This document shows positions 705-34,260 of a DNA stretch of 64,000 nt, one piece after another (position 1 is the first letter of the stretch; every line of letters begins with the position of its first letter). Both the position numbers and the translations under genes were made by a program. The notes under the pieces were generated by a model. The model did not search any database and was not told the DNA's origin. It saw only the letters and a list, made by a program, of their open reading frames with translations. Source of the DNA: Empedobacter tilapiae (GTDB lineage Bacteria > Bacteroidota > Bacteroidia > Flavobacteriales > Weeksellaceae). The stretch is taken from assembly GCF_004785645.1 (NCBI RefSeq), contig NZ_SRPE01000003.1, forward strand, positions 248,001 to 312,000. The letters are read 5' to 3'.

Positions 705-1253
705 ATGATGAAAAAAGTACCATTTATTTTAACAATTTTCTGTGCATTAGTTTCTGGAATGGCTTTAGCTCAAAAAACAGCTCAAGCTACATTGAATGTA
801 AAATTATATCCAATTCAAACAATTGTTATTGGTGGTGACAATACAGTAAATTTAGAATATAAAACAAAAGAAGATTATTCTAATGGTGTAACAGCAAATA
901 TGAATGATCATTTAGTTGTTTATAGTACAGGTGGTTTTGCTGTAAAAGTAAAATCTGAGAACGAAAATTTAGTTTTCACAAAAGATGGAACTACTGATAA
1001 AATTGCTGCAAATACAATTAATTTACAAGCAACTTTAGGAACTGGAAATTTATTAAATTCTTCAACATTTAGTAATGTTGTTTTAGATAATTCTGATAAA
1101 AATTTGATTTCAAGTTCTGTAGGTGGTACAGATTTAAAATTCAATGTTGCATATAACGGAAAAGGAAACAACGATTATGTAAACAAATATTACAATGTTG
1201 AGAATCCTAATGTGTATACAACAACTGTAACGTACACAATAGAAGCACAATAA
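705..1253 (+). CDS. Putative major fimbrial subunit (pilin) of a chaperone-usher-like system
   Basis: A secreted protein of 182 residues with a signal peptide ending ALAQ at 20-23. The mature part is about 160 residues, rich in Thr, Asn and Val, without cysteine, and predicted to be all-beta. It ends in alternating beta-strand sequence (VYTTTVTYTIEAQ), as expected for a subunit whose edge strands are used in polymerisation. Residues 49 to the end align with the C-terminal half of the adhesin-like protein at 2099-3124; shared features include DY-x-NGV (57-62 here), a following L-x-V-x-S strand, and the terminal Y-T-I strand. It is first in the operon and is followed by an attenuator hairpin, as expected for the most abundant product. 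The fimbrial role is inferred from this paralogy and from the neighbours. Confidence 0.6.
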   Translation: MMKKVPFILTIFCALVSGMALAQKTAQATLNVKLYPIQTIVIGGDNTVNLEYKTKEDYSNGVTANMNDHLVVYSTGGFAVKVKSENENLVFTKDGTTDKIAANTINLQATLGTGNLLNSSTFSNVVLDNSDKNLISSSVGGTDLKFNVAYNGKGNNDYVNKYYNVENPNVYTTTVTYTIEAQ

Positions 1254-1264
1254 TATATAAAATA

Positions 1265-1299
1265 GGAAGTAATGTTGAAAAATATTACTTCTGTTTTTT
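1265..1299 (+). terminator. Attenuator-type hairpin between pilin and chaperone genes
   Basis: A 12-bp stem (1265-1276 pairs with 1281-1292, two G-U pairs) is closed by a GAAA tetraloop and followed by GTTTTTTC. This has the form of a Rho-independent terminator, yet it sits inside an operon 4 bp before the next start codon. It would probably let only part of transcription continue into the chaperone, adhesin and usher genes, giving pilin in excess. Confidence 0.7.
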
Positions 1300-1302
1300 C
1301 TT

Positions 1303-2109
1303 ATGAAAGTTCTTCGCTTTTTAATAATCGTTTCTTTTTTAGCATTAATTATTTCTACAAAGATTAGTGCACAATCAGGTATTTCTGTAAGTCCACCAAG
1401 GACTTATTTTACGTTAAATCCTGGAGAGTCTGAACGTAAAAAGATTTTGGTAACCAATGTTAGTGATGTAAATACATTAGAGTTAGCAGTATCTTTTAAA
1501 GATTGGAAGTATGATGAATTCGGAGCTAATGTTGTTTCGGAAGTGAATACCCTACCAACGAGTAATGCAAACTGGATCACAGTTTTACCAAATAATACAT
1601 TTACACTTTTACCAAAAGAATCGAAAGAAATAGAAGTTCTTATGCAAGTTCCAGAAAAGGTAAATGAAGAAAGTGTACATACTACGATGATGTACATTAC
1701 TCAAACTAATCCGATAGCTGGACAAAATAAAAGTGGAGAAAACATTAAGATTTCAATTCGTACAGGTGTCAAAATTTATCAACGACTAAATATTGTACGT
1801 GATATAAATGTTGAGTTTACAAATTTTGTCTACGATAAACATGAAAATCGTTTGGTACTAAATATTTCTAATGATGGAAATGTTTGGAGTGAAGGAACGA
1901 TTAGAAATGAAATTATTAATCAAGATAATGGAAAACAAATAAAATTGCAAGATGCAGTTTTTTATAGTTTACCGAATGATAAAAGAATTGTATATATACC
2001 ATTGCCAGATGATTTAGCAAAAGGCTCGTATATTGTTACCTCAACTTTAAGTTTTGAGAAAGATGATCAATTGAAAATAGCTGAATTGACTTTCTCAAAT
2101 GATAAATAA
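1303..2109 (+). CDS. PapD-like periplasmic fimbrial chaperone
   Basis: 268 residues with a signal peptide ending near ISAQ (21-24). The mature protein begins SGISVSPPRTYFTL, the first strand of PapD-type chaperones, with Arg33 in the place of the subunit-anchoring arginine. Two immunoglobulin-like domains follow. At the domain junction the segment ISIRTGVKIYQR (150-161) matches the family pattern around the second anchoring residue, here Lys157. Chaperones of this kind bind pilin subunits in the periplasm by donor-strand complementation and deliver them to the outer-membrane usher. It starts directly after the attenuator hairpin and overlaps the adhesin gene by 11 bp. The chaperone family is well supported; the client subunits are inferred to be the two neighbouring secreted proteins. 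Confidence 0.8.
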   Translation: MKVLRFLIIVSFLALIISTKISAQSGISVSPPRTYFTLNPGESERKKILVTNVSDVNTLELAVSFKDWKYDEFGANVVSEVNTLPTSNANWITVLPNNTFTLLPKESKEIEVLMQVPEKVNEESVHTTMMYITQTNPIAGQNKSGENIKISIRTGVKIYQRLNIVRDINVEFTNFVYDKHENRLVLNISNDGNVWSEGTIRNEIINQDNGKQIKLQDAVFYSLPNDKRIVYIPLPDDLAKGSYIVTSTLSFEKDDQLKIAELTFSNDK

Positions 2110-3124
2110 TAATTTATTTCAGAAAATTGTTTCAACAATTATGTTGCTACTAACAGTAGCTACTTCTGCTCAGTTAACATTAAATGCGCACAATAATGGT
2201 TGGGTACAAGTTAATGGAAGTAGCGGTGTTACTGTAACTAATGTTGTAGCTGTTGAAATGCATATGTCTGGTGCATTAAATTATAAAAATTGGTCATTAG
2301 TTGCGCGAGTTGTTTCACCTATTGTAAATTCTCAGAAAAAAGAATTTCCTGTAGAAAAACTTAAATTAAGGTTCAATAATTATACAACATCTCAATATTA
2401 TTCAGAGAACTATCCTACTCTAAATCAGTTAGGAGTTATCCAGAATAGCATCGCTATGAGTTTTTCTCCCAACTATTTTATTCGAAATTCTCCTATGGCA
2501 ATTACAACGCCAACAGGAAGATATGGAGGAATTGTGTTGAATTATGATATTGTGATAGATGCGGGAACTTATCTAAATCCTTTAAAATCTTGGAATAATT
2601 ATCCTATTCAATTAGAATTTTCGATATTGAATGAATTTGGAGCTGTAATAGGAAGAAGTCTTTTTTCTATTGAAATGCAAATTAGTCCAAACGGAAATTA
2701 CGAACCTGTTCCTACACTTTCTATAGCAGTGGACGGCTCTGCTGTAAATGGAGAATTAGTATTCAATACTATTCAAGATTATAGAAATGGAGTTAAAAAA
2801 GAATATCAAAATGGGTTAATTGTTTCTTCAGATACTGCTTACGATATTCAAGTTTCGTCACTTAATCAGTATTTGCAATCAAATGATTCGCAGAATTTGG
2901 AATTAAATTCGATTAATGTTCAGATAAAAGATACAGAAACAAATCGTTTGTCTAAAGAAATAAAACTTTCGAATTACAATCAATCATTAATAACAAATAG
3001 TTCTAAAACTACTTCAAAAAAATATAATATTATTTATTCTACAACTCCGTCGGATAATAAAATTTTGAATAGTAAGCCAGGAAATTATTCAACTTCGTTA
3101 CTGTACACCATTACACCTTTGTAA
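2099..3124 (+). CDS. Two-domain FimH-like tip adhesin (putative)
   Basis: 341 residues with a signal peptide ending near TSAQ (22-25). Residues from about 26 to 195 form a domain with no recognised relative, beta-rich with many aromatic and Asn residues. Residues from about 205 to 341 align with the pilin at 705-1253: ELVFNT-x2-DYRNGV here against NLEYKT-x2-DYSNGV there, then the L-x-V-x-S strand, a matching LITNSS/LISSSS-like block, and a terminal strand LLYTITPL against VTYTIEAQ. A unique N-terminal domain fused to a pilin domain is the layout of FimH-type tip adhesins. Binding to a ligand is inferred from this layout; the ligand is unknown. Its start codon lies inside the end of the chaperone gene, which suggests translational coupling. 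Confidence 0.6.
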   Translation: MINNNLFQKIVSTIMLLLTVATSAQLTLNAHNNGWVQVNGSSGVTVTNVVAVEMHMSGALNYKNWSLVARVVSPIVNSQKKEFPVEKLKLRFNNYTTSQYYSENYPTLNQLGVIQNSIAMSFSPNYFIRNSPMAITTPTGRYGGIVLNYDIVIDAGTYLNPLKSWNNYPIQLEFSILNEFGAVIGRSLFSIEMQISPNGNYEPVPTLSIAVDGSAVNGELVFNTIQDYRNGVKKEYQNGLIVSSDTAYDIQVSSLNQYLQSNDSQNLELNSINVQIKDTETNRLSKEIKLSNYNQSLITNSSKTTSKKYNIIYSTTPSDNKILNSKPGNYSTSLLYTITPL

Positions 3125-3130
3125 AACAAT

Positions 3131-5944
3131 ATGTACTTTTTAATCAATTATTTTCGAAGCGTATTTTTTATTCTGCTTATCATTGTTAGCGGACAAAATT
3201 TGCGTGCTCAAACTATAAATAATGGATTAAAATTTAGCACAATAAAAGAAATTAAATTAGAAGATGATAATAATTTTTCTGTTATTCTTCAATTAGAAAA
3301 TACAACGAATGATACTATTAATGCGCTCTTGGGACTTAAAATTCCTGCATCAGTAAGATCGTATTCGCAAGACAATCTTCAAATAAGAATCAATCCGAAA
3401 AAGAAAGCTTTTATTCCAATTCAATTTACAGTGAACAAATCGCAAATGGCTGGGAAATTGGATTTAGAATTTAGTATAATTGATTTTTTAAACAAAAAAG
3501 AAATCGGGAAATCGGTAACATCGGTTATTGTTTTGCAAAAGAGAAATATCAAAATTTTTCCGGTTCAGAGTAATATTTTTTATCGCCAAGAAGGAGATTC
3601 TATTCATTATGAGCTAAAAGTAATGAATATGGGAAATCAAGCTGAAGAAGTTTTATTAACAAATGTTCTTCCTGATTTTAGAGGTAATTTTACTTCAGAT
3701 AATAAACGAATTAATGTAGACGCTTTTCAAGAAAGAATTGTTCGGTTTTCTAAATATGTAGACCGTGATATGATGAAAATCGAAAGTTTTCAGGTAAATG
3801 TTTCGGGTTATACAAATACCAAAGATTTTGCAGGAAATGTCTTTTTTACAATTCAAAATGCCAGTTCTAATCGTGTGTACACAGATCCAGCGATGTTGAA
3901 TCAGAATTGGACAAATCTTTCTACAAATTATGTCCGATTAACTGCTCGTGATATCAATTCTACAAATGCGAATTATAATTTAATGGCACATCAAGAATTT
4001 TCGGTTGGGTTAAATGAATTTGCTTACAATATTAATGGAACTTCATGGCAAAACGATCAAGATATGGTTTTGACAGATTCTTGGGTGAAATATCAGCGGA
4101 AAGACAAAGGTATTTTAATAGGATCGATTAATAATAATGATTTTGATATTCCAATTAATGGACGAGGCTTAATGCTGTTTAATAATTATGATAAAAATTA
4201 CAATCGTATTGTGGTTGGAACAGTCGAAAAAAATTATAATTTATTAGATAATTTGAGTAATGATGTATTCAAAAATAGTCACACAACTTTTGCGAATGGA
4301 AGATTTTTAATAAAAGATAAAAATGAGTTAGAAACAACTACTTTATTCGATAGAAATTATTCGACAACTAATTTTGTTTTGACAAATGGTTACAAGTGGA
4401 TAACTCCGAATAAATGGAATTACTCTATGAAATTTGGGTATGGTTTATCAAAATTTAAAGAAACGAACAATGTCGAAAATTCGATGTCGGTTTCTGCAAA
4501 TATTTCTGGAACAATAGGAAAGTTCGATTTCTATAGTTCTAATTATTTTAGTTCTGGTTATTATCCTGGGACGCGACGTGGAGCATTGTATCTTAATCAG
4601 CGTTTTCAACGAACGTTTTCTAAATTTTCTCTGTGGTCTTCGTTAACAGTTACCAATAATAATCCGAAATCTATCGATCCATATTTGATTAATTACATGC
4701 AAGCAAATGAATCGAAAGCCTTACGTTTTGAAACAGGAATTTCGTTTAAATTAGCGAGTCATTTCAATCTTTCGATTTCTCCAAAATTCAACATAGAAAA
4801 ATCAAATATCTTGAATTATGAGACCTTTACGTATATACCAATGGATTTTAGATCGACTTATCTAAATGGAACGTTTACTTGGTTGTCTAATTCTCGTGTG
4901 CATCAGTTGGTGTTGAATGCTTTGGGAGGATTTTCAGAGTTAAATGATTTTCATAAAGTCGATCCAATTATTTATGGACAATTAACATGGAATGTGAAAA
5001 ACTTTCAGTTAAACTCGATTTATCAACGTGGGAGTATGATGATTGCAGAAGTTTATTCTACCAATAATCTAGATCATCAACTAGAACGTTTTACTACTTC
5101 AGCGAGTTTTCGTCAAAGTTTTTTTCAGAAAAAATTGAATACAGCAGTTTCTACTTATTATAATATTGACAAAAATTTTGGAAATACAATAACTTTTGGA
5201 GCTTCTATCGATTATCAACCATTTGATGATTTTATTGTTAATACACAAGCTAATTTTAGTCATTACGATTCAAAAACATTGTATAGTAAACAAACTTATT
5301 TGCAAGTTGGTGTACAATATAATTTACCAGCAAAACGTGCGGTAACTAATGTTAAAGACGGAACATTGAATTTGTTTGTGTTTTATGATTACAATGCAAA
5401 TGGTGTTTTTGATAAAGGCGATAAAGTGGCTGATAGTCGTAATGTGAAGATAAATGAAACGAATTTTATTACAGATTTAGAAGGGAATATCAAGTATAAA
5501 AAAGTGCCTTATGGAAATTATTTGGTTAAACTTCCTGGTCAAAAATGGTTTGCGCAAGATTATGCGATTAATATCAATGCGAAAACGACTTCTATTTCTA
5601 TTCCAATGCAACAAACTGGTGTTGTGAGAGGGAAAGTTGAATATGAACTGTCTTCAAAATTAGAATATCAAGTTTCGGCAAATTTATTTGGATTTACATT
5701 GATTTTTAATCACGAAAATGGACAGGTTTTTACAGTTAAAACGAATGATAGAGGTGAGTATACAGCTTTTTTACCTGTTGGAAATTATACATTTCATCTT
5801 GTAGAAAATAGTTTACCAGAACATGTTTATGCGAAAACATATTTGAATAAAGTGACGGTTGAAAAGGAACAAAATACAGAATATGAACCGCTTATTCTTA
5901 AAATTAAGGAACGAAAAGTTAACATTAAACGTTTTGGTAGTTAA
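3131..5944 (+). CDS. Outer-membrane usher-like protein with N-terminal Ig-like domains
   Basis: 937 residues with a signal peptide ending LRAQ (24-27). Residues from about 28 to 245 look like two immunoglobulin-like domains in tandem. Residues from about 250 to 740 consist of alternating aromatic/polar strands with short turns, as in a large outer-membrane beta-barrel. Within this part, SWVKYQRKDKGILIGSI followed by an INGRGLML stretch recalls the start of usher barrels. The C-terminus carries two small beta domains: GTLNLFVFYDYNANGVFDKG near 743 (an SdrD B-like/alternate-usher motif) and GVVRGKVEYEL near 835 (carboxypeptidase-regulatory-like). Classical ushers also end in two small periplasmic domains. 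Size, order and position after the chaperone support a secretion pore for the fimbrial subunits. The two Ig-like N-terminal domains differ from the classical usher N-domain. A barrel adhesin or assembly factor is the alternative. Confidence 0.6.
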   Translation: MYFLINYFRSVFFILLIIVSGQNLRAQTINNGLKFSTIKEIKLEDDNNFSVILQLENTTNDTINALLGLKIPASVRSYSQDNLQIRINPKKKAFIPIQFTVNKSQMAGKLDLEFSIIDFLNKKEIGKSVTSVIVLQKRNIKIFPVQSNIFYRQEGDSIHYELKVMNMGNQAEEVLLTNVLPDFRGNFTSDNKRINVDAFQERIVRFSKYVDRDMMKIESFQVNVSGYTNTKDFAGNVFFTIQNASSNRVYTDPAMLNQNWTNLSTNYVRLTARDINSTNANYNLMAHQEFSVGLNEFAYNINGTSWQNDQDMVLTDSWVKYQRKDKGILIGSINNNDFDIPINGRGLMLFNNYDKNYNRIVVGTVEKNYNLLDNLSNDVFKNSHTTFANGRFLIKDKNELETTTLFDRNYSTTNFVLTNGYKWITPNKWNYSMKFGYGLSKFKETNNVENSMSVSANISGTIGKFDFYSSNYFSSGYYPGTRRGALYLNQRFQRTFSKFSLWSSLTVTNNNPKSIDPYLINYMQANESKALRFETGISFKLASHFNLSISPKFNIEKSNILNYETFTYIPMDFRSTYLNGTFTWLSNSRVHQLVLNALGGFSELNDFHKVDPIIYGQLTWNVKNFQLNSIYQRGSMMIAEVYSTNNLDHQLERFTTSASFRQSFFQKKLNTAVSTYYNIDKNFGNTITFGASIDYQPFDDFIVNTQANFSHYDSKTLYSKQTYLQVGVQYNLPAKRAVTNVKDGTLNLFVFYDYNANGVFDKGDKVADSRNVKINETNFITDLEGNIKYKKVPYGNYLVKLPGQKWFAQDYAININAKTTSISIPMQQTGVVRGKVEYELSSKLEYQVSANLFGFTLIFNHENGQVFTVKTNDRGEYTAFLPVGNYTFHLVENSLPEHVYAKTYLNKVTVEKEQNTEYEPLILKIKERKVNIKRFGS

Positions 5945-13295: not shown

Positions 13296-16103
13296 ATGAA
13301 CAAATTATTGTTAAGTCTTTCAGTCTTTGCTGCAACTGTTGCTATGGCGCAGGCGCAAACAAAGGTTACTGGGGTAGCAAAAAATGCTGCTACAGGTGAA
13401 GAGGTTTATAACCTCACTGTACGTTTGGACGGAGGAGCAGTAAGCGATGCTGCTATCACCGATCGTATAGGTTATTTTCAGTTTGTAGATATTCCGGATG
13501 GAACATACAAATTACAAGTTTATGGCGTAGGATATGATCCTTATGAAAAAGAAATCACTGTAGCAGGGCAAAAAGAGCTAGACTTAGGTGATATTAAATT
13601 AACATTTAATCCAAATACTGCAGAAGTTGGTATTATTACTTTAACTGACGATGAATTGTCAGATGACGAAAGTACTACAGCTTCAAATTCAGGACTTTTA
13701 CAATCTTCTCGCGATGTTTTTGCTCGCGTTTCTGCATACGAATTAGGTTCGTATTGGTTTAAACCAAGAGGTTTAGATAACAAGTATAATGACGTACATT
13801 TTAATGGAGTTCGTATGAACAAAATGGATAATGGGCGTGCGACCTTTAATAACTGGGGAGGTTTGAATGATGTTACTCGTCGCCCTGATGAGTTAACATA
13901 TGGAATAGAGCCTTCTAAATATGCTTTTGGAGATTTAGGTGGAGTCACAAATTTTGATACTCGCCCTTCTACAATGCGAAAAGGGGTAAGTTTAGCATAT
14001 TCTAATACTAATCGTTCGTATAGAAATCGTGTAATGGCAACTTACAATACAGGATTAATGGATAATGGTTGGGCATTTATGGTTTCTGGAAGTAGACGCT
14101 GGGCAGAGGAAGGTATCATAGAAGGTACTTTTTATGACGCTTATGCTTATTATTTAGGTATCGAGAAAAAGTTTAATGAAAAACATACTTTAAACTTTAC
14201 AAGTTTTGGTGCTCCAACACGTCGTTCTACAGGTTCTCCAAATACACAAGAAGTTGTGGATATGAAGGGAATTTATTACAATTCTTATTGGGGATGGCAA
14301 GATGGTGAAAAACGTAATGAACGTGTTAAGAAAACATTCGAGCCTATTAATATGTTAACTCACCATTGGAATATTAATAATAAGTCAAAATTAACAACAA
14401 CTGTTTCTTATCAATTTGGTAAAGAAAGTGGTTCTCGTTTAGATTGGTTTAATGCAAATAACCCTTCTCCAACATATTATCGTAATATGCCAAGCTACAA
14501 ACTGTATAAGGTAGATGGAAGTGCGCCAACTGAAGCAGATTTTGCGGCATCTAATGTATTATATAATCAATGGATGAATGGAGAAATTTCTCAATTAAAT
14601 TGGAATAATTTATATGATGCAAATAGAAAATCAAGTAAAGATGGACATGCAATTTATTGGTTAACTGCAGATGTTAACGAAGATAGAACAGCAACAGCTT
14701 ATACGAATTTTCAGACAGAATTAGCACCAAATATTGATTTAACATTAGCAGCATCTTACCAAAATACAAATTCTAAATTATATCGCGAAGTTCAAGATCT
14801 AATGGGAGCTGAGTTTGTGTGGAATAAAGATGATTTTAATACTGTTGTAGAAAATGGAGTTTCACGTTTTTATCGTTATAATATTTTAGATAATCGTGAC
14901 GAATCGGAACGAGATAAAATTAGAAAGGGAGAAAAACAAGAATATTATTACGAAATCAATCGTGATTATGCTGATTTATTTGCCCAAACTAAAATCAAGT
15001 CGAAATTTTTGGATGTTACAATTGGAATGAAAGCAGCAATGACGAAATTCTATCGTGATGGGAAGTTCCAAAATGAGATGTATAAAGATCATTCTTACGG
15101 AAAAAGTAAGACATACGATTTCTTAGATTTTGGAGTAAAATCGAATTTCTTAGTGAAATTAGACGGACGTAATTTTATTCAAGCAAATGTAATGTATCAG
15201 ACAGAAGCGCCAACATCGGATGAAATTTTTCCAAATGCTCGTTTGAATGATGTTACAATTAATGGAATTGAAAGTGCTAAAATTTTCTCAGGTGATTTAT
15301 CTTATATTTTAAGAGCACCTAGAATAAAAGCTAGAGCTACAGCATATTATACACGTACAAAAGATGAAATACAAAAAGCTTTCGGGTATATTGATGGAGG
15401 ATTAGATTCTCAAAAAAGATTTTTTGTATCTGAAGTTTTAAATGGAGTAGGTAAAGAATATTTAGGTACTGAACTGGCAGTTGAGGCTCAAGTTTTACCA
15501 GTTCTTACAGTTTCTGCTGTTGCTTCTATTGGACAATATGTTTACAAAGATAATCCAGATTATTATTTGTATTCTGATGAATTTGGTAAAGATGGAATTC
15601 CTTTCAAAAACTTTGGGACATCATATTTGAAAAATTATAAAGTATCTTCTGGACCTCAATCAGGGTTTTCATTGGGGGCAGAATATCGTGACCCTAAGTT
15701 TTGGTGGATAGGAGTTTCAGGAAATTTATTGACAAATAATTATGCAAGCCCTGCGGCTTATCGTAGAACAGCAAGCTTTTTATTAGATGATAATGGAGTT
15801 ACTGATCCAACATTAACAGATGAAGGTTTAATGCGTGTTTTAAAACAAGAAAAATTTAGTAACGAGTTTATGCTGAATATAAATATGGGAAAAACTTTTC
15901 GTATTGGTAAATACTCTGCAGGAATTTCAGGAACGATTAATAATGTTTTAAATAACAAAAACTATGTAACTGGAGGATTTGAACAAATGAGAATAGGTAA
16001 TTATGCTAATGCAAGTAATAAATATTATCAAACTATGTTCGGACCAAAAATGTTCTACGGAATGGGGACTACTTATTTCGCAAACATTTATTTCAGATTT
16101 TAA
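13296..16103 (+). CDS. TonB-dependent receptor with N-terminal carboxypeptidase-regulatory-like domain
   Basis: 935 residues with a signal peptide ending AMAQAQ near 16-21. Residues from about 22 to 105 form a CarboxypepD_reg-like beta-sandwich (KVTGVAKNAATGEEVYNLTV). A plug domain follows (YWFKPRGLDNKYNDVHFNG), then a long beta-barrel ending in an aromatic residue (YFANIYFRF), the usual C-terminal signal for outer-membrane barrel assembly. Receptors of this type import a ligand using TonB-ExbBD energy. It is not of the SusC subtype, because the SusC-specific plug signatures are missing. It is followed 25 bp later by a DUF5689 lipoprotein and is divergent from a secreted nuclease. TAAATTTG at 13227-13234 is a possible -7 element without a good -33. 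Confidence 0.88.
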   Translation: MNKLLLSLSVFAATVAMAQAQTKVTGVAKNAATGEEVYNLTVRLDGGAVSDAAITDRIGYFQFVDIPDGTYKLQVYGVGYDPYEKEITVAGQKELDLGDIKLTFNPNTAEVGIITLTDDELSDDESTTASNSGLLQSSRDVFARVSAYELGSYWFKPRGLDNKYNDVHFNGVRMNKMDNGRATFNNWGGLNDVTRRPDELTYGIEPSKYAFGDLGGVTNFDTRPSTMRKGVSLAYSNTNRSYRNRVMATYNTGLMDNGWAFMVSGSRRWAEEGIIEGTFYDAYAYYLGIEKKFNEKHTLNFTSFGAPTRRSTGSPNTQEVVDMKGIYYNSYWGWQDGEKRNERVKKTFEPINMLTHHWNINNKSKLTTTVSYQFGKESGSRLDWFNANNPSPTYYRNMPSYKLYKVDGSAPTEADFAASNVLYNQWMNGEISQLNWNNLYDANRKSSKDGHAIYWLTADVNEDRTATAYTNFQTELAPNIDLTLAASYQNTNSKLYREVQDLMGAEFVWNKDDFNTVVENGVSRFYRYNILDNRDESERDKIRKGEKQEYYYEINRDYADLFAQTKIKSKFLDVTIGMKAAMTKFYRDGKFQNEMYKDHSYGKSKTYDFLDFGVKSNFLVKLDGRNFIQANVMYQTEAPTSDEIFPNARLNDVTINGIESAKIFSGDLSYILRAPRIKARATAYYTRTKDEIQKAFGYIDGGLDSQKRFFVSEVLNGVGKEYLGTELAVEAQVLPVLTVSAVASIGQYVYKDNPDYYLYSDEFGKDGIPFKNFGTSYLKNYKVSSGPQSGFSLGAEYRDPKFWWIGVSGNLLTNNYASPAAYRRTASFLLDDNGVTDPTLTDEGLMRVLKQEKFSNEFMLNINMGKTFRIGKYSAGISGTINNVLNNKNYVTGGFEQMRIGNYANASNKYYQTMFGPKMFYGMGTTYFANIYFRF

Positions 16104-16128: not shown

Positions 16129-17508
16129 ATGAATACAATATCAAAATTATCAATAGCGGGTATTTTAAGCTTAGGTTTATTTATTACGCAATCATGTGTA
16201 CAAGATGATGATTACTCTGTGCCGCCAACAGAATGTAGTTTGCCAAAAGCAAATATTAACCTTAAAGATTTAGTAACTAAAGTAACTTCTGGTGAGATTG
16301 CTTTAGATTCTAATGGAGCTGTTGCAGACGATTTAATAATGGAGGCTTATGTGATTTCGAATGATGAAACAGGAAACTTTTATAAAACTATTTCTTTACA
16401 AGATAATCCAAGTGAACCTACAGTGGGTATACAAATAGAGATAGATGATAGTAATTTATATACATCTTATCCATTAGGATCAAAAGTTCAAGTTAGATTA
16501 AAAGGATTAGTTGTAGCAAAAGATAGAGGAATAATGAAAATAGGTTCTGTAGATCCTACTTATGCTGTTGGTCGTATTCCAAGAACTTTATATAAAAAGT
16601 TTCTTATTAGAACATGTGACCCTAACAAAGAAATTGTTCCAAAAGTATACAATAGTTTATCAGATGCTTTGAAAGCAGAAAACTTAAATACATTAGTTAC
16701 AATTAATAATGTTCAATTTAAAGATCCTGAAGGGGATAAAACTTACGGAGTTTTAAATACTACTGTTAATAGAGTTTTAGTTGATAAATCAGGAAAAGAA
16801 GTAGATTTACGTAATTCAGGTTATGCAAAATGGTATAATGAGGCATTACCAACAAAAAGTGGTTCTATTACTGTTGTTGTAAGTATCTATAACTCTTCTT
16901 ACCAAGTTTATATTCGTGATACAAAAGATGTAAAGTTTGATCAAGATCGTTTTGAAGTTGGAGGTGGACAAAATCCAGGAGGAGATGGTACAGAGGCTAC
17001 TAACTTGTTATTTAAAGGATCTGATTTCAATGTTTGGGCAGACTTTTTAGCATCTATTAATACAACATTTGGATTAAAAGATTATGCTACAAATGGAGTT
17101 GGATTAGGAAGAGATAATTCAAATGCATTAAAGATTAAAGGTACACCTGCTGGAAATGATTATGTGTTTACTGCTTTGTTAACAGATGCACTTCCTGCAA
17201 ACCCTAAGAAAATTACTTTCTATGTAAAGGGAACTGCTGGAAAATCATTATCATTAAATGTAAATAAATCAACAACTGGATTTACACCATTTAATATAGG
17301 AGATCTATCAAATAAATCTGTTACAGTTTCGGCTGCTGCAAATAATCAATATAATGGAACTATTGATACAAAAGGAGAGTGGGTACTTGTTACTTTAAAT
17401 ATTGAAGGACTTGATATTCAAAAAACAATTAAAGGAGATTTGTTTTCTTTAAAAGTAGGTAAAGATGTTGCATATGATTTAAATATCGATAATATTAAGA
17501 TTGATTAA
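16129..17508 (+). CDS. DUF5689-domain surface lipoprotein
   Basis: 459 residues. The signal peptide ends in a lipobox at FITQSC, with the lipidated Cys23 followed by VQDDD, an acidic stretch typical of surface-exported Bacteroidota lipoproteins. Residues from about 40 to 270 match DUF5689, a domain built of OB-like folds found next to TonB-dependent receptors. After a Gly-rich linker (GGGQNPGGDG) residues from about 290 to 459 form a beta-jelly-roll-like domain, as seen in carbohydrate- or ligand-binding anchors. It probably captures ligand for the receptor encoded just upstream, in the way SusD serves SusC. The nuclease across the divergent promoter makes nucleic acid or a phosphoester polymer a reasonable guess for the ligand. 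Confidence 0.75.
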   Translation: MNTISKLSIAGILSLGLFITQSCVQDDDYSVPPTECSLPKANINLKDLVTKVTSGEIALDSNGAVADDLIMEAYVISNDETGNFYKTISLQDNPSEPTVGIQIEIDDSNLYTSYPLGSKVQVRLKGLVVAKDRGIMKIGSVDPTYAVGRIPRTLYKKFLIRTCDPNKEIVPKVYNSLSDALKAENLNTLVTINNVQFKDPEGDKTYGVLNTTVNRVLVDKSGKEVDLRNSGYAKWYNEALPTKSGSITVVVSIYNSSYQVYIRDTKDVKFDQDRFEVGGGQNPGGDGTEATNLLFKGSDFNVWADFLASINTTFGLKDYATNGVGLGRDNSNALKIKGTPAGNDYVFTALLTDALPANPKKITFYVKGTAGKSLSLNVNKSTTGFTPFNIGDLSNKSVTVSAAANNQYNGTIDTKGEWVLVTLNIEGLDIQKTIKGDLFSLKVGKDVAYDLNIDNIKID

Positions 17509-18667: not shown

Positions 18668-21600
18668 ATGAGGAGAAGATTAACATCTTTGGGCTTACTG
18701 GCTTTCCTAGGTTTAGGAACAATGGCTTTTGCTCAAGTTACGGGTGTAGTTAACGATGGTAACAATTTTCCAGAGTCTGACGTAGAGGTTACCGTAAAAG
18801 GTACAGATAAAGTTGCGTATACTGATGAAAACGGAAATTTTAACATTGATGCTAAAATAGGTGATACATTAGTAATTAATGGAAAAGAATTTAAAGTAAC
18901 TTCTAATAATTTAGGAGCTTTAAAATATACAGTTGATGAAAAAGTTGATTTAGGTGAAGTAATTGTTGTAGGTTTCGGACAGACTAAAAGTGTTCAAGAG
19001 GTAACGGGAGCAACAAGTACAATGAGTTCTAAATCAATTCAAGATGTTCCTGTGGCTTCAGTAGATAAAATGTTACAAGGGCGAGTATCTGGAGTACAGG
19101 CAGGTAGTGCTTCTGGTCAGCCAGGAGGTATGGCAAGTGTTCGCGTTCGAGGTATTTCTTCTATTAATGGGGTACAGTCTCCAATTTGGATTGTAGATGG
19201 TGTGCGTATAGCTAGTGGAGATTTAACAAGAAACAATACAACAGGTAATATTTTAGCTAATATGAATCCTGATGATATTGAATCAGTAACAGTTTTAAAG
19301 GATGCGGTGTCAACTGCTGTTTATGGTGCTGATGCTGGTGCTGGTGTAATTATCATTACTACAAAATCTGGAAGAAAAGGTGATGCAAAATTTAATTTCT
19401 CTTCTTCTATAGGATGGAATGATAGAGCTGTTAAAATGAATCGTCCATTTACAGGTGATGAGTATAAAACATATTTAAGAGATCAGGTTAATAATTACTT
19501 AGAAACTAGCTATACAAACGAAGATATTGCTAATGGAAAAGTGAATGCTACATTTGCTAGTATCTTTAAATCACCTTATTCAACAAACTGGCAAGATGAG
19601 ACGATGAAAAAGGGAATACAACAAAATGTTGATTTCAATGTTTCTGGAGCAAACGAGAGATTGTCATATTATGCATCTGCCAATTATTTTAACCAAGAAA
19701 GTGTTATTAAAAACTCTAGCTTCAAACGTTTAGCTTTTACAAATAAACTTTCTTATCAAGCAACAGACAAATTAAAATTATCTACTGATATTCAAATGTC
19801 TTATGGTAATATTAGAACTTTACCAAATGCAGGAGGTTTTGCTAATCCTATTTTAGCGGGATATTTCAATAGACCAACTGATCCTGTTAGAAATGAAGAT
19901 GGTTCTTATTATTGGACTTCTAATGGAAGAATGTCTAATGGACAGTTTAATCCTGCTGCTTTGTTAGATATGAACTATAGTAAAGCACAAACAGCTCGTG
20001 TATTTGCGAACTTTAAAGCAGAATATGATATTTGGAAAAATATTAAATATACATTAGTTTTTGCACCTGAATTTGTTAATGTTGAGGAAGATAAGTATTA
20101 TAACCCTAAACATGGAGATGGATTAAACTTAGGAGGTTATCAATCATCAGGAACAAATAGATTTTTTAATTTTAATGTTCAAAATATTGTAAGTTGGAAT
20201 CAAAAATTTGATTTACATAATGTAGGGGTGTCTTTGATACAAGAAGCATATAAATCAGATCAAAGATATTTGTCATCAACAGGAATTACTGTAGGTAGCC
20301 CTGTTTTAGAGACATTGACAAACTTTGTTGTTCCTTACGGATATGAAGGAGGTAAGGTAATTTCTTCTCGTTGGGGATATGCTGCAACAGCACACTATGA
20401 TTATGATAGATTAGTATTAGTTGACGCGTCTTATCGTCGAGATATCCTTTCTCAATTCATGCCAGGTCAAAAAGAAGGAGACTTCTGGTCTGTAGGTCTT
20501 GGATTTGATGTTGCCCGTTTAGGGGGATTAAGAGGAAATGGAACTATTTCAATGATGAAATTGAGAGCTTCTTATGGTAAATTAGGTAATCAAGTAAGTG
20601 CTAATCCTTATGCCACATATGCTTATTCAACAAATTATAATGATTACGCAGCAGCAACTTTCAATAGAGTATATAACCCTAATTTATCTTGGGAAACAGT
20701 TAATCCTTTAAATGTAGGAATTGATTTTGGTTTCTTAAATGATCGTATTAGATTTTCAGCAGAGTATTTCAATAAGAAAACAAAAGACTTGATTTATGAT
20801 TTACCATTATCGGCTTCTCAAGGACTATATAATGTGACAAATGGAAATGCAGTTTATACTGATAATATTGGTGAATTAGTAAATAAAGGTTTTGAATTTA
20901 CTGTAAATGCAGACATCTTAAAAGGAGATCGTAATCAATTCAATTGGAATGTAGGATTTAATCTATCAACTTTAGATAATGAAATTACGAAATTATATGG
21001 AGGAGAAGTTAAAGGAGGTACTACAATCTTAAAAGAAGGAGAAGGAGTAAGAACATTTTATTTAAGAAAATGGGCTGGTGTAGATCCAACAAATGGAGAT
21101 CCATTATGGTATATTAATGGTAAAGATGGTGCTACAACTAATAATTATGCTACAGCACAACAAGCTGTTCAAGGATCATTTATTAGTGATGTATATGGAG
21201 GTATGAATACATCATTAGCTTATGCTGGGTTCTCATTAGATCTTCAATTTACTTTCGGATTTGGAGGGAAAATCTATGATAACTGGGCTGCATATAACTA
21301 CAGTGATGGACAATACTCAATCAACTATCCTGGATATGGAGATGTAATGGGGGATTACTGGACGCCAGAAAATACCAATGCATCGAATCCAAAACCAGTT
21401 TATAATGGAAATAAAAGATCGAATAGTGCTTCTACACGTTTCTTATATGACTCAGATTACATTCGTTTGAGTAACGCAAGATTAGCATATACATTCGATA
21501 GTAAAATGTTAAAAGGAAGTGGATTAAATTCAGTTCAAATGTATGTAATGGCAAATAATGCTTGGACACATAGATTTGACAAAGATTTAAAATTTGATCC

Positions 21601-21682
21601 TGAAACAAATGTAGCAGGATACACAGACTTTAATTTACCAGTATTAAAGGCATTCTTATTAGGAGTAAATGTTAGTTTCTAA
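18668..21682 (+). CDS. SusC/RagA-family TonB-linked outer-membrane protein
   Basis: 1004 residues with a signal peptide ending AFAQ near 20-23. Residues from about 24 to 90 form the carboxypeptidase-regulatory-like domain. The segment LGEVIVVGFGQTKS is the SusC N-terminal signature. The plug follows with GRVSGVQ, SVRVRGISSINGVQSPIWIVDGV and IESVTVLKDAVSTAVYG, then a barrel ending LLGVNVSF. SusC proteins are TonB-powered importers of oligosaccharides or peptides, and SusD lipoproteins form a lid on them. It overlaps the first possible SusD start; the true SusD start lies 10 bp after its stop codon. There is no glycoside hydrolase or peptidase in the unit, so the ligand cannot be named. Confidence 0.93.
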   Translation: MRRRLTSLGLLAFLGLGTMAFAQVTGVVNDGNNFPESDVEVTVKGTDKVAYTDENGNFNIDAKIGDTLVINGKEFKVTSNNLGALKYTVDEKVDLGEVIVVGFGQTKSVQEVTGATSTMSSKSIQDVPVASVDKMLQGRVSGVQAGSASGQPGGMASVRVRGISSINGVQSPIWIVDGVRIASGDLTRNNTTGNILANMNPDDIESVTVLKDAVSTAVYGADAGAGVIIITTKSGRKGDAKFNFSSSIGWNDRAVKMNRPFTGDEYKTYLRDQVNNYLETSYTNEDIANGKVNATFASIFKSPYSTNWQDETMKKGIQQNVDFNVSGANERLSYYASANYFNQESVIKNSSFKRLAFTNKLSYQATDKLKLSTDIQMSYGNIRTLPNAGGFANPILAGYFNRPTDPVRNEDGSYYWTSNGRMSNGQFNPAALLDMNYSKAQTARVFANFKAEYDIWKNIKYTLVFAPEFVNVEEDKYYNPKHGDGLNLGGYQSSGTNRFFNFNVQNIVSWNQKFDLHNVGVSLIQEAYKSDQRYLSSTGITVGSPVLETLTNFVVPYGYEGGKVISSRWGYAATAHYDYDRLVLVDASYRRDILSQFMPGQKEGDFWSVGLGFDVARLGGLRGNGTISMMKLRASYGKLGNQVSANPYATYAYSTNYNDYAAATFNRVYNPNLSWETVNPLNVGIDFGFLNDRIRFSAEYFNKKTKDLIYDLPLSASQGLYNVTNGNAVYTDNIGELVNKGFEFTVNADILKGDRNQFNWNVGFNLSTLDNEITKLYGGEVKGGTTILKEGEGVRTFYLRKWAGVDPTNGDPLWYINGKDGATTNNYATAQQAVQGSFISDVYGGMNTSLAYAGFSLDLQFTFGFGGKIYDNWAAYNYSDGQYSINYPGYGDVMGDYWTPENTNASNPKPVYNGNKRSNSASTRFLYDSDYIRLSNARLAYTFDSKMLKGSGLNSVQMYVMANNAWTHRFDKDLKFDPETNVAGYTDFNLPVLKAFLLGVNVSF

Positions 21683-21692
21683 AAAAATTAAA

Positions 21693-23126
21693 ATGAAAAA
21701 AAGATTATTTACCATAGCAATACTTACGGCAAGTGTTTTATCATTGAATATGTCATGTAGTGATGATTTCGTTGAAAGAGAATTTCACCAAGAAGTAGAG
21801 CAAAAACCATTAACATCGTTTAATGAACTTCAATCATTTGTGCGTGGAGCATATGTACAAATGAGGTCAGCAAAATATTATGGATGTGATTTCTTAGCTT
21901 ATGGAGAAATTCGTTCAGATGAAATGAGTAGTAATAAGTTATCAGGATATTATACAACAGTACAAGATTATACAATGTTGTCAACAGATGCTTATGCGAA
22001 AGATACTTGGGGTGTAATTTATAAAATGATTGCAACGACGAATATTGCAATTAATACAGATGTAGCTAAATTCCAAGGAAGTGAAACTGAACATAATCAG
22101 TCGTATTTCATTCAAGGTCAAGCTCATGCATTAAGAGCGTTAGGATTTTTTGATATTTTAAGATTATATGGTCAAAAATATACAAATGCACCAGATCAAT
22201 TAGGAGCTGTTCTTCCTTTACAATATGACCCGAAAGCAAAGATGCCTCGTGCAACAATTGCTGAAACGGAAGCTCAAATTGAAAAAGATTTTGATAAAGC
22301 GATCGAAATTATGACAAAATATGCTTCTGTTAAGAGTATAACTTTAAAAGGTAAAACAGATTTAAATATTGAGGCAGTTAAAGCTTTAATGTCTCGTTAT
22401 TATTTATACAAAGGAGATTATGCTAAAGTAAGAAAATTAGTTGATGAAATTGTAGCAGAAAAAACATATTCTATTGCTCCTCAAGGTTTATTGGTTGATA
22501 CATTTCAATACACAATGAACGGTGCTGCTCTTAATTCAATTTTTGAATTAGCAGTAGGTACAACAGGTTCATTAGGTACAACTTCTTATCGCCATAAATT
22601 GAATCCTGGAGGTTATGGAAATCTAGCTGTAAAAGAAACTTCTTATACTTCTTATGCTGCAAATGATGTTCGTAAAGCTTTGGTGACACTTAATAATGGT
22701 CAATACTTTGTAACAGGAAAATATACAAATAATGTTGGAGCAGATAACATTAAGATGATTCGTTATGAAGAGGTTATCTTAGATGGTGTTGAAGCTGAAT
22801 TAAATGGTGGTAATCCTGCTAAAGCATTAGAATATTATAAATTACTTTTAGCCCAAAGATTGAAGCCAATTACTAATAGTGATGGAACAGTTAATACTGT
22901 TGAAGATCAATTAAAATTGATTACTTCAGTTTCAGTTGGAGATCTTAAGAAAGAAAGATCAAAAGAATTATTAGGAGAAGGTTTAAGACAATGGGATTTA
23001 CTACGTTGGGGTGATACATCTTATGCAAATGGTAAAGACAAAAATCTATTAGCTTTCCCAATTCCTAGAATTGAGACAGATTTAGGAGGAAGTTTGATTA
23101 AATCAAACCCTGGATATGATAACTAA
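21693..23126 (+). CDS. SusD/RagB-family nutrient-binding outer-membrane lipoprotein
   Basis: The start is placed at the ATG at 21693 rather than the in-frame ATG at 21669, because MKKRLFTIAILTASVLSLNMSC is then a clean lipoprotein signal peptide with a Cys at residue 22. The protein is about 477 residues. It shows the SusD helical (TPR-like) architecture: FNELQSFVRGAYVQMR at the start, a central AHALRALGFFDILRLYG helix typical of the family, and the C-terminal ERSKELLGEGLRQWDLLRWGD hallmark. The last stretch LLAFPIPRIE is also typical. It forms the lid of the SusC transporter encoded just upstream and binds the imported ligand at the cell surface. Confidence 0.93.
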   Translation: MKKRLFTIAILTASVLSLNMSCSDDFVEREFHQEVEQKPLTSFNELQSFVRGAYVQMRSAKYYGCDFLAYGEIRSDEMSSNKLSGYYTTVQDYTMLSTDAYAKDTWGVIYKMIATTNIAINTDVAKFQGSETEHNQSYFIQGQAHALRALGFFDILRLYGQKYTNAPDQLGAVLPLQYDPKAKMPRATIAETEAQIEKDFDKAIEIMTKYASVKSITLKGKTDLNIEAVKALMSRYYLYKGDYAKVRKLVDEIVAEKTYSIAPQGLLVDTFQYTMNGAALNSIFELAVGTTGSLGTTSYRHKLNPGGYGNLAVKETSYTSYAANDVRKALVTLNNGQYFVTGKYTNNVGADNIKMIRYEEVILDGVEAELNGGNPAKALEYYKLLLAQRLKPITNSDGTVNTVEDQLKLITSVSVGDLKKERSKELLGEGLRQWDLLRWGDTSYANGKDKNLLAFPIPRIETDLGGSLIKSNPGYDN

Positions 23127-29873: not shown

Positions 29874-31124
29874 TTGAAAACGAAGTTAGAAAAATTTAAA
29901 ACGAAGAATGCAAAAGGTGTTTTGTCTTTATTGGCGGGTAACACTGTTGCGCAAGTTATCATGCTAGTTGGTGGGCTTATTTTGGCTCGAATTTATGGTC
30001 CAGAAGCATCGGGAACTTACAATGCTTTTTTGAGTTTTGTGGCGATTCTTTCAATTTTAGCAACATTTCGGTTAGAAAATATTTTTGTGATTTCGAAATC
30101 ATCAATAGCTATTCGGAATTTATTTACAACGCTATTGTTAATAAGTAGCATTGTTACAATTTTGTTCTTTTTAGGATATGCTATTTTAGAAAAAATATTT
30201 ACGTTTAAAACATCTATATTAGTTGTTTTCTTAAGTTGTATCGCAGGGTTATTTACAGCTTGGAACAATGTGCAAAATACGCTGTTTACGAAGTATAAAT
30301 TATTCAAAAGTATTTCAACAGGGTTTGTGATTAATGCGTTGTTTTCGGTCTTTTTTCAATTTGCTTTTTATTGGATGGGCTACAAAGAAACAGGATTGAT
30401 TTATGGGACAATTTTCGGAACAGTTTTATCTTGTGCCTACTATTTTTCTATAACAAAAGGACGATTTACTTCAATTGATTTTGGATTAGCAAAAAAAACA
30501 ATTCTCAAGAATAAAGAAATTATTAAATATACTTTACCATCTGAATCTTTAAATGCAATTGCTAATAATTTGCTACCAATTATGATTGCGATTTATTTTA
30601 TGAAAGAAGATGTTGCTTTCGTTGGGAATTCGGCTAAAGTTTTGGTTGTTCCTTTGACGTTGCTTTCTAATTCAATGTCGAAAGTTTTTTTTCAGAAATC
30701 TGCTGGAATGATTGATCATCGCGCTCATCAACTGTATGATTTATCTAAGAAAGTCGTACTTTATAATGTAGCTGCAATTGCTGTTTTTTTACTGTTAATG
30801 AATTGTATTGGGATTTTTATTCTTGAATGGATTCTTGGACCAGAATGGAGAGGTTTACACGTGATGACATGGATACTTTCTTTTTGGATTTTATGCCGTT
30901 CAGCAATGAATCCTATTCAACAAATTGTCGTTGTTATAAAGAAAAATCATTATGCGTTATATTTCAATATTTATTTAGTTTTTATTACTTGTATTACTTG
31001 TGTAATAGGAGGATTAAATAAAAATATACTTTTGACGTTATCACTATATTCTTTCTTTGCTGGAATTGGCTATTTAGTTCAACTTTATTTTGTGATGAAA
31101 GAGTTGAAACGTTATAAAAAGTAG
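29874..31124 (+). CDS. Polysaccharide flippase (Wzx/MOP superfamily), first copy
   Basis: 416 residues with about 12 hydrophobic helices. The start GVLSLLAGNTVAQVIMLVGGLILARIYGPEASGTYN is the typical first-helix motif of lipid-linked oligosaccharide flippases. The start appears to be a TTG at 29874, because no in-frame ATG precedes the conserved N-terminus. It is likely to move undecaprenyl-linked glycan units across the inner membrane. It is the first gene of the polysaccharide locus and lies 5 bp before the asparagine-synthase-like gene. Confidence 0.82.
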   Translation: MKTKLEKFKTKNAKGVLSLLAGNTVAQVIMLVGGLILARIYGPEASGTYNAFLSFVAILSILATFRLENIFVISKSSIAIRNLFTTLLLISSIVTILFFLGYAILEKIFTFKTSILVVFLSCIAGLFTAWNNVQNTLFTKYKLFKSISTGFVINALFSVFFQFAFYWMGYKETGLIYGTIFGTVLSCAYYFSITKGRFTSIDFGLAKKTILKNKEIIKYTLPSESLNAIANNLLPIMIAIYFMKEDVAFVGNSAKVLVVPLTLLSNSMSKVFFQKSAGMIDHRAHQLYDLSKKVVLYNVAAIAVFLLLMNCIGIFILEWILGPEWRGLHVMTWILSFWILCRSAMNPIQQIVVVIKKNHYALYFNIYLVFITCITCVIGGLNKNILLTLSLYSFFAGIGYLVQLYFVMKELKRYKK

Positions 31125-31129
31125 GATCA

Positions 31130-32989
31130 ATGTGTGGAATTTCCGGTATATTTTCTAAAGATAAATTAAGTGATTCATCGATTTTAAATTCGTTGGGATC
31201 GATTAAACATCGTGGGACTAATAATACGATTCATTCATGTTTTTTTGAACAAGACCTACATTTTTATTCAAGTAAATTATCCGATAAAAGAACTCAATTT
31301 GACTTAAAAAATTCAGAAGGATTTTTAGTAAATAATTGGATAGGTTTTAATAGACTTTCTATTCTAGACTTATCTAATAATGGTATGCAACCATTTTATG
31401 AAAACGATGCAAAAATAGCATTAACGATGAATGGTGAAATTTATAATTTTCGTGAACTTCGAAAAGAGTTTCTATTAGATAAAGATTTTAGCTCTGATTC
31501 TGATACAGAAGTCGTTTTTCAATTGTATCTGAAATTAGGAGATGATTTTGTTCATCATCTTAGAGGTATGTTTACGATTGTAATTATAGATTATAAAAAT
31601 AATGAAGCCAAAATTTGGCGAGATCGATTTGGTATAAAACCCTTTTACTATTATTTAGATGATAAATACTTTATCTTTTCTTCAGAAACTACTGGAATTT
31701 TTGCGACAGATTTAGTTGAAAGAAGTATTGATTTTAAACATTTAGCTTATTCATTTTATTTGAATTCGAGTTTTTCACCTCATACGATTTACAATAATAT
31801 TTACTCTTTAGAAGCTGCAACAAAACTTGAGGTTGATCTGACTACATTAAAAGCAAAAAAAGAAATTTATTGGCAATTAGAATATCAACCAAATAATAAA
31901 TCAATTTCGAAAGAAGAATTTTTAGATGATGTTTGTAAACTTGTAAATTTAGCTTCTGTTGCTGATGTTAAACAAGCTGTGATGTTAAGTGGAGGTTTGG
32001 ATTCTGGTTTATTAGCTTATCAATTTGGGAAAAATAAAATAGATATTGAAGCCTTAACCATTTATAATACTGATGTAGAAGAACAAAATGAGCTAGAATT
32101 TGCTAAAAGCAATGCAGAAAATGCAAAATTAGATTTGTTATCTTTTAAAATAGAGAATGAAGTAACTCTACAAACAATAAAAGAATATTGTCTAGCAGAA
32201 GAAGAACCAAATTCTTCACCAGAACCAGCGTATTTTTTATCAAAAAAAGCATTCGAGAATAAATATACTATTCTGCACAATGCATTAGGGTTAGATGAAT
32301 TATTTTATGGATATGGTTATTATCATCAAGCAAAAAAAATGCAGATAATAAGACCTTTTTTACTAAAACCTTTTAAATATTTATTAAAAGGATCAAAACG
32401 ACATAAATATGAGGAAATTACAAGATTTGGAATAGAAGCTGCACCTTTTATTATGAGAAGTTTTTCTTCTTGGGTAGCTATTCAAAAGTTATTTTCGAAA
32501 TATGGAAGTGAAAACTGGGAGCATCCAATATCTATTTTAATGAATAAAGTAAGAGAAACAAATTCTAATTTTGAGAAAATGCCTTTACTGAAAAAGATTT
32601 CTTACTTAGATTTTTATTATTATATCAGTTCTCATCACTCCTTACGATCAGATGTTCCTGCAATGAAGAATGAGATTGAAATGCGTTTTCCTTATTTGGA
32701 TCATCTATTTGTACAGAAATATTTTAATATTTCAGATTTACATCAAGGTTTAACAAAAGAAAATAATAAACCATTTCTAAGAAAAAATGTTACAAATATT
32801 CTACCAAAAGATGTACTTTCTATGAAAAAGAAAGGTTTTTCTATGCCAACATCAAAATGGTTGGAAAGTGTTAATTTAGAGAAAGATTTTCCTGAATTGA
32901 CGGCTGTTTTTGGAGAGAATTATAAAAATTGGATGAATCATCCATCAAAAAAATGGTTTTTAATTTCGACAAGTTTATTACTGAAATGA
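31130..32989 (+). CDS. Asparagine-synthase-like glutamine amidotransferase of a polysaccharide locus
   Basis: 619 residues. The N-terminal class II glutamine amidotransferase domain has the catalytic Cys2 (MCGISGIF), the HRGTNN motif and the NGEIYNFREL block. The synthetase domain has the PP-loop SGGLDS at 287-292. Known bacterial AsnB proteins make asparagine from aspartate, but paralogues inside glycan loci are thought to amidate sugar acids or related precursors. Its position between a flippase and a glycosyltransferase favours the second role; housekeeping asparagine synthesis cannot be excluded. Its stop overlaps the start of the glycosyltransferase (ATGA). Confidence 0.85.
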   Translation: MCGISGIFSKDKLSDSSILNSLGSIKHRGTNNTIHSCFFEQDLHFYSSKLSDKRTQFDLKNSEGFLVNNWIGFNRLSILDLSNNGMQPFYENDAKIALTMNGEIYNFRELRKEFLLDKDFSSDSDTEVVFQLYLKLGDDFVHHLRGMFTIVIIDYKNNEAKIWRDRFGIKPFYYYLDDKYFIFSSETTGIFATDLVERSIDFKHLAYSFYLNSSFSPHTIYNNIYSLEAATKLEVDLTTLKAKKEIYWQLEYQPNNKSISKEEFLDDVCKLVNLASVADVKQAVMLSGGLDSGLLAYQFGKNKIDIEALTIYNTDVEEQNELEFAKSNAENAKLDLLSFKIENEVTLQTIKEYCLAEEEPNSSPEPAYFLSKKAFENKYTILHNALGLDELFYGYGYYHQAKKMQIIRPFLLKPFKYLLKGSKRHKYEEITRFGIEAAPFIMRSFSSWVAIQKLFSKYGSENWEHPISILMNKVRETNSNFEKMPLLKKISYLDFYYYISSHHSLRSDVPAMKNEIEMRFPYLDHLFVQKYFNISDLHQGLTKENNKPFLRKNVTNILPKDVLSMKKKGFSMPTSKWLESVNLEKDFPELTAVFGENYKNWMNHPSKKWFLISTSLLLK

Positions 32990-34194: not shown

Positions 34195-34260
34195 TTAGTT
34201 ACTTAGGCTGTATTATAATAATCATTATTTATATTTCCCATTAACTGTTTACAATAAAAC

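Follow-up and report, generated by a model that had tools for sequence, protein, structure and literature searches.

A chaperone-usher-like operon with a plug-less barrel protein in Empedobacter tilapiae, probably the pilus locus of a Bacteroidota branch

We describe here a four-gene operon of Empedobacter tilapiae that probably encodes a chaperone-usher-type pilus belonging to a branch within the Bacteroidota. The operon lies near the start of a 64,000-nt window, the whole stretch of DNA analysed (assembly GCF_004785645.1, contig NZ_SRPE01000003.1, positions 248,001-312,000, forward strand; genome 3.7 Mb), and its order of pilin, PapD-type chaperone, two-domain adhesin and 937-residue barrel protein, claimed in a first-pass annotation of the sequence, is confirmed by the open reading frames (ORFs). 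The further claim that this is a chaperone-usher locus holds for its general logic, for the PapD-type fold of the chaperone and for the adhesin that ends in a pilin domain, but not for the barrel, which is not a standard usher. The four genes are:

705-1253, forward strand: pilin-like ORF, 182 residues, major pilin-like subunit
1303-2109, forward strand: chaperone-like ORF, 268 residues, PapD-like periplasmic chaperone with two Ig-like domains
2099-3124, forward strand: two-domain tip-adhesin-like ORF, 341 residues
3131-5944, forward strand: usher-like outer-membrane barrel ORF, 937 residues

The successive intergenic gaps are 49, -11 and 6 bases, the adhesin gene overlapping the chaperone gene by 11 bases, and by eye each protein begins with a signal peptide and an A/Q cut site. 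In a Pfam scan of the window the chaperone matched nothing but weak Ig-type domains, and the 937-residue protein matched SpaA, CarboxypepD_reg, SdrD_B and FixG_C; the scan gave no match for the pilin or the 341-residue protein, and an NCBIfam scan of the window gave nothing relevant for the four. The survey of gene order that the first-pass annotation had proposed started from a chaperone scan of GTDB species genomes, which yielded 103 relatives, of which 80 were kept. In 77 of these 80 named loci one or more pilins are followed by chaperone, adhesin and barrel on the same strand, and the remaining three (L111, L117 and L161) are cut by contig ends. Among the 77, the barrel ORF is split in L100 and L127 and cut by a contig end in L125 and L136; we note that the barrel gene is interrupted by a single internal TAA in a genome of Empedobacter sedimenti (L007/L100) and is divided into two ORFs in a Parabacteroides genome (L127).

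The chaperone model (AlphaFold2, AF2; mean predicted local distance difference test score, pLDDT, 92.7) has two Ig-like domains, with structural matches by Foldseek and VIA to WxLIP (the WxL-interacting protein), FimC, Caf1M and CsuC. Both of the hallmarks assigned to it at first sight, PPRTYF with Arg33 and IRTGVKIYQR with Lys157, are present, and they mark two features:

1399-1401, forward strand: Arg33 codon, aligning with Arg44 of the FimC precursor
1741-1779, forward strand: putative G1 donor strand of the chaperone, residues 147-159, with I148, I150, I152 and V156 alternating, and K157; aligned to FimC by hhalign

In the hhalign alignment R33 falls on Arg44 of the FimC precursor and K157 on its Lys148, the basic cleft pair numbered Arg8 and Lys112 in PapD. 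Arg33 is found in 33/33 aligned relatives (33 of 36 chaperones entered the alignment) and Lys157 in 23/33, the other ten, all from paralogous type B loci, having His; positions 148, 150, 152 and 156 are hydrophobic in 17/17 aligned type A chaperones. PPR is present in 80/80 chaperones of the genome scan, a count that is partly circular because the scan patterns contained PPR, the GxK motif not being among them. Against the K-12 chaperones, the hhalign value fell from 94% untrimmed to 55% without signal peptides, which is still above 30 shuffles; the trimmed comparisons, unlike the untrimmed ones, leave out the signal peptides and were set against column-shuffled and reversed nulls. Neither the chaperone nor the pilin found anything beyond noise when solved structures were searched with single sequences or with profiles.

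Ranked by Z, the solved structure that best matches the chaperone is WxLIP, and 18 of the 33 relatives match DUF916 (WxLIP_PGBD) at E up to 1 (best 1.4e-7), the window protein giving no match. The locus could be a diderm counterpart of the Gram-positive WxL cluster, with a two-Ig protein that stabilises and anchors small and large surface proteins sharing a domain, a barrel that merely exports them, and no polymer. We regard this as unlikely, as the root-mean-square deviation (rmsd) of the chaperone is lower to FimC (3.1 over 183) than to WxLIP (6.3 over 229), and the last element of its model is a strand at residues 257-266 of 268, with no C-terminal membrane helix. The window pilin contains no tryptophan and therefore no WxL motif, several pilin copies with a conserved N-terminal donor-like strand are present in many loci, and a large barrel gene stands in 77/80 loci, the rest being contig-cut or also holding a barrel.

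The pilin and adhesin contribute two further features:

786-806, forward strand: putative pilin donor strand, residues 28-34
2711-3121, forward strand: C-terminal pilin domain of the adhesin, residues 205-341

By eye the pilin signal peptide is cut at A22/Q23 and has no lipobox. The mature N-terminus has the pattern of a donor strand, with large hydrophobic residues at positions 30, 32 and 34 in 97, 100 and 100% of 29 aligned pilins (of 72 found) and mostly polar residues between them. Residues 205-341 of the adhesin are homologous to pilin residues 36-182 (hhalign 99.4%, E 4.4e-21; 23 type A-like of 36 adhesins aligned), and since the alignment begins only at pilin residue 36, the adhesin's pilin domain would lack a free donor extension and thus resemble a tip subunit. 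A pilin family search gave no match for the window pilin and a best E of 0.015, at noise, for the 29 members, and hhalign of window-type pilins to K-12 pilins was at noise level.

Bacteroidota fimbriae have been discussed mainly as the FimA/Mfa type, whose subunits are lipoproteins assembled in a protease-dependent manner. The operon shares with these type V (FimA/Mfa1) fimbriae of Bacteroidales the phylum and the theme of fimbriae with adhesive tips, but we give this identification almost no credence. The lipobox pattern was found in the first 32 residues of 0/129 pilin ORFs of the 80 loci, with ORF starts assigned mechanically (elsewhere in 1/79 adhesin, 1/80 chaperone and 1/81 barrel ORFs), no FimA/Mfa family matched in the window or in the 29 pilins, and neither a PapD-like chaperone nor a large barrel is known to take part in the type V pathway. 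The original view that the locus is not of the Mfa/Fim lipoprotein type is therefore sustained by the pilins.

The barrel protein is the least canonical member of the set, and is modelled as three parts:

3218-3865, forward strand: pair of Ig-like domains at the N-terminus (residues about 30-135 and 136-245), standing where ushers have their N-terminal domain
3920-5335, forward strand: beta-barrel, residues 264-735, with no plug insertion
5357-5920, forward strand: two C-terminal beta domains, SdrD_B-like then SpaA/CarboxypepD_reg-like, residues about 743-837 and 838-925

Its AF2 model (pLDDT 84.5; predicted TM-score, pTM, 0.57) has FimD as best match in both Foldseek and VIA, the VIA alignments to FimD reaching 923 on chain 833, and DSSP assigns 26 strand segments to the barrel, the described usher barrel having 24 strands. 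There is no plug insertion in the model, and across 33 relatives (33 of 37 barrels aligned) the barrel length is 461-478, the largest insertion relative to the window protein being 11 residues. Pfam finds FixG_C in 18/33 and NPCBM_assoc in 7/33 relatives within the N-terminal Ig-like region. This Ig pair resembles the operon's own chaperone, with a trimmed hhalign score of 30.7 against a best of 19.6 in 30 shuffles (93% untrimmed, 23% trimmed and still above the 30 shuffles); its second domain, N2, is not above the null on its own (18.0, shuffle best 18.1).

Pfam Usher (PF00577) matches neither the barrel protein nor its relatives, hhalign of the N-terminus to the K-12 usher N-terminal domain gave noise, the C-terminal domains have no sequence match to those of K-12 ushers, and the profile-to-profile comparison of window-type barrels with K-12 usher barrels, suggested by the first-pass annotation, found no match. 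A match of the barrel profile to the solved structure of NOMO2 (E 5.5e-7) was rejected, having come only through the promiscuous C-terminal domains. Structure prediction returned a two-Ig chaperone and a barrel with C-terminal domains but no plug; absence of an usher-like plug or of C-terminal domains had been named as telling against an usher, and here the plug is missing and both domains are present.

Several considerations weigh against a chaperone-usher pilus. The chaperone resembles the WxL-interacting protein no less closely than it does PapD, and low Foldseek TM-scores together with general Ig matches lower our confidence by a very small amount. The 937-residue protein, moreover, cannot be called a standard usher: by its sequence, its lack of a plug and its N-terminal domain it falls outside the described usher family, Ig-like domains taking the place of the last, yet it has two C-terminal domains. 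A barrel without plug and usher N-terminal domain would also suit polymerisation without usher catalysis, as TasA-like or spontaneous donor-strand fibres, with the barrel a passive export pore. The best solved-structure matches of the pilin profile are chains named TLP-2 and TLP-1, from entries of 16 chains each, but at E 0.28 and 0.6 these are not significant, a search by entry code listed no paper on them, and the lead was dropped. We think uncatalysed assembly very improbable, the operon having a dedicated PapD-like chaperone with both basic cleft residues, strictly linked to a barrel that has two C-terminal domains.

A third kind of locus bears on the chaperone-usher assignment. Among 395 Bacteroidota genomes none exceeds the Pfam Usher cut-off, and four have matches at E up to 1e-3, in ORFs of 1010-1505 residues from other classes of the phylum. 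Type C loci (L198-L207), which take in these and similar ones, comprise up to four pilin-sized genes, of which several usually precede the chaperone, a chaperone, and an usher-like protein of 949-1505 residues; the chaperone and usher profiles each flagged 5/10 of these loci, the rest being assigned by position, size and alignment. Of three type C ushers scanned, one ends in SPOR, one in OmpA and one in a weak TPR match, and two match Pfam Usher below the cut-off (E 2e-4 and 3e-4). Against K-12 ushers the type C usher profile reaches 94.8% (E 4.8e-8) over FimD precursor residues 142-420, the first part of the barrel and the plug, and the trimmed barrel scores 58.1 (shuffle best 26.5). Type C also matches the window type in chaperones (68.7, null 18.6), pilins (33.9, null 21.0) and usher C-terminal domains (112.5, null 19.5), whereas no match is seen between the two types of barrel (22.0, reversed 23.8). 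Type C and K-12 show no clear match in chaperones (22.4, shuffle best 21.9) or pilins (15.6, shuffle best 14.3), and type C chaperones lack the cleft Arg. Type C matches the window-type chaperone and pilin and has a recognisable usher, and therefore joins both to such a system; going by these profile comparisons, the window barrel is either strongly diverged or replaced. One type C pilin weakly matches DUF4402. Further usher-like proteins occur at L216:2610-6326 (1239 residues, with N-terminal NEW3/Ig and CarboxypepD_reg) and L217:6966-10799 (1278 residues), adjoining a chaperone, pilin-sized genes and a 992- or 1021-residue protein, and may represent an intermediate type.

Relatives of the 937-residue protein are present in 63/197 sampled genomes of the family (own included) and in 10/33 genera. 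The 80 loci kept from the chaperone scan come from Empedobacter, Algoriella, Chishuiella, Elizabethkingia, Kaistella, Cloacibacterium, Chryseobacterium, Flavobacterium, Myroides and Paenimyroides, and further Arenibacter, Mesonia, Pedobacter, Parapedobacter, Sphingobacterium, Niabella, Dysgonomonas, Parabacteroides, Leadbetterella and others; the closest named relative at the locus is Empedobacter falsenii (chaperone identity 90%, barrel 91%). Phylum-wide, 110/395 Bacteroidota genomes match, mostly through short matches to the C-terminal domains, with 12 (own included) matching over about 290 or more model positions, and no relatives were found on plasmids. The paralogous type B loci within the family have pilins, chaperone, barrel and then, where the contig allows, a 475-482-residue adhesin, and form one clade (7 rows, 100/98) in a tree of 47 chosen barrels of 880-1000 residues. 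This tree disagrees with taxonomy, setting Chryseobacterium apart from Elizabethkingia and Empedobacter and alongside Dysgonomonas, Niabella and Flavobacteriaceae, a pattern compatible with transfer or old paralogy. Both type B loci tested (L054:10200-12944 and L061:9505-11589) are followed by a hybrid sensor kinase (HisKA/HATPase/response regulator, with PAS in one), a possible pili regulator.

Two features flank or interrupt the operon:

1-538 (ORF 26-538), forward strand: C-terminal part of an AraC-family regulator, full gene 287 residues, beginning upstream of the window
1265-1301, forward strand: terminator-like hairpin and T tract in the pilin-chaperone gap, 12-bp stem, 4-base loop; hairpin 1265-1292, T tract to 1301

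The product of ORF 26-538 matches HTH_18 (Pfam, E 1.6e-15), the complete 287-residue ORF is present in the same genome (L224), and an AraC-type helix-turn-helix is encoded upstream of type A loci in 7/7 relatives tested. Six of 14 sampled genomes of the genus lack the barrel gene, and in five of these the 157- and 247-residue neighbours, recognised by sequence, are present directly beside DUF4184 or mvaD, the AraC gene and the four operon genes being missing together; the sixth has different neighbours. The AraC gene is thus absent jointly with the operon, and the cassette therefore consists of AraC plus four genes. Terminator-like hairpins occur in 56/104 distinct pilin-chaperone gaps, where dinucleotide shuffles expect 7.9 (an earlier tally of 61/113 loci included places fetched twice), and the hairpin likely lowers downstream expression relative to the pilin. 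By eye there is a TANNTTTG-like element at 607-614; sigma-70-type promoters are no more frequent than in shuffles.

We propose that all four proteins are exported by Sec and that the two-Ig chaperone would bind each pilin and lend it the G1 strand. The basic pair of PapD holds the subunit C-terminus, and R33 and K157 probably do the same for the pilin. The barrel would receive chaperone-subunit complexes and put the N-terminal strand of the next pilin (residues about 28-34) in place of the chaperone strand, the growing fibre passing through the 937-residue protein. The 341-residue protein would be the tip adhesin, in which a domain precedes the pilin domain instead of a free donor strand. With no plug between the barrel strands, the pair of Ig-like domains at the N-terminus may serve as the gate. 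The AraC regulator would control the cassette, and the hairpin after the pilin gene may let pilin exceed the other proteins. A broader interpretation, which we advance tentatively and with more doubt than belief, is that these loci form a phylum-specific chaperone-usher lineage with a plug-less usher gated by a chaperone-like N-terminal Ig pair and a chaperone structurally between PapD and WxLIP, connecting WxL surface complexes with proteobacterial pili in a single ancient machinery of strand complementation.

If the chaperone-usher assignment is correct, about a third of sampled family genomes (63/197), with named relatives in Elizabethkingia, Chryseobacterium and Empedobacter, would encode an adhesion organelle missed by standard profiles, and an usher that lacks a plug would allow the plug's role to be tested directly. 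Elsewhere in the window are a polysaccharide cluster at 29874-35703 (two flippase-like proteins, an asparagine synthase-like protein and a glycosyltransferase; low G+C of 24-29%) and a TonB-dependent receptor and SusD-like pair at 18668-23126, near which lie 13296-16103 (CarboxypepD_reg N-terminus) and 16129-17508 (DUF5689).

The earlier suggestion of a separate or little-described branch is borne out, no such system being described in open-access titles and abstract openings for Bacteroidota, Chryseobacterium, Elizabethkingia, Flavobacterium, Riemerella or Empedobacter. A table passage of PMC4827864 gives the phyla of the usher family as Proteobacteria, Spirochaetae, Cyanobacteria and Deinococcus/Thermus, Bacteroidetes not being among them, and an excerpt of PMC9452303 places archaic chaperone-usher systems in a wide range of phyla. 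Like the Gram-positive WxL/WxLIP (DUF916-DUF3324) clusters, as excerpted from PMC10599100, the window locus pairs a two-Ig partner with small and large proteins that have a domain in common, but it lacks the WxL motif in the pilin and the C-terminal membrane helix and has an outer-membrane barrel. With type V fimbriae it shares phylum and adhesive fimbriae, but its pilins have no lipobox. Type C loci have homologous chaperones, pilins and usher C-terminal domains, and differ in having a barrel and plug region with a profile match to K-12 ushers. Compared with classical (fim of E. coli K-12, pap) and archaic (Csu) chaperone-usher systems, the window usher differs in having no plug insertion and Ig-like domains for the N-terminal domain, its barrel and pilin are undetectable by sequence from the K-12 proteins, and the pilin lacks the two cysteines that nine K-12 pilins conserve. 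The likenesses to these systems are a two-Ig chaperone with an Arg/Lys pair and an alternating G1 strand, small pilins with an N-terminal donor-like strand and a two-domain protein ending in a pilin domain, all in one operon with a large barrel that has two C-terminal domains and FimD as its best match.

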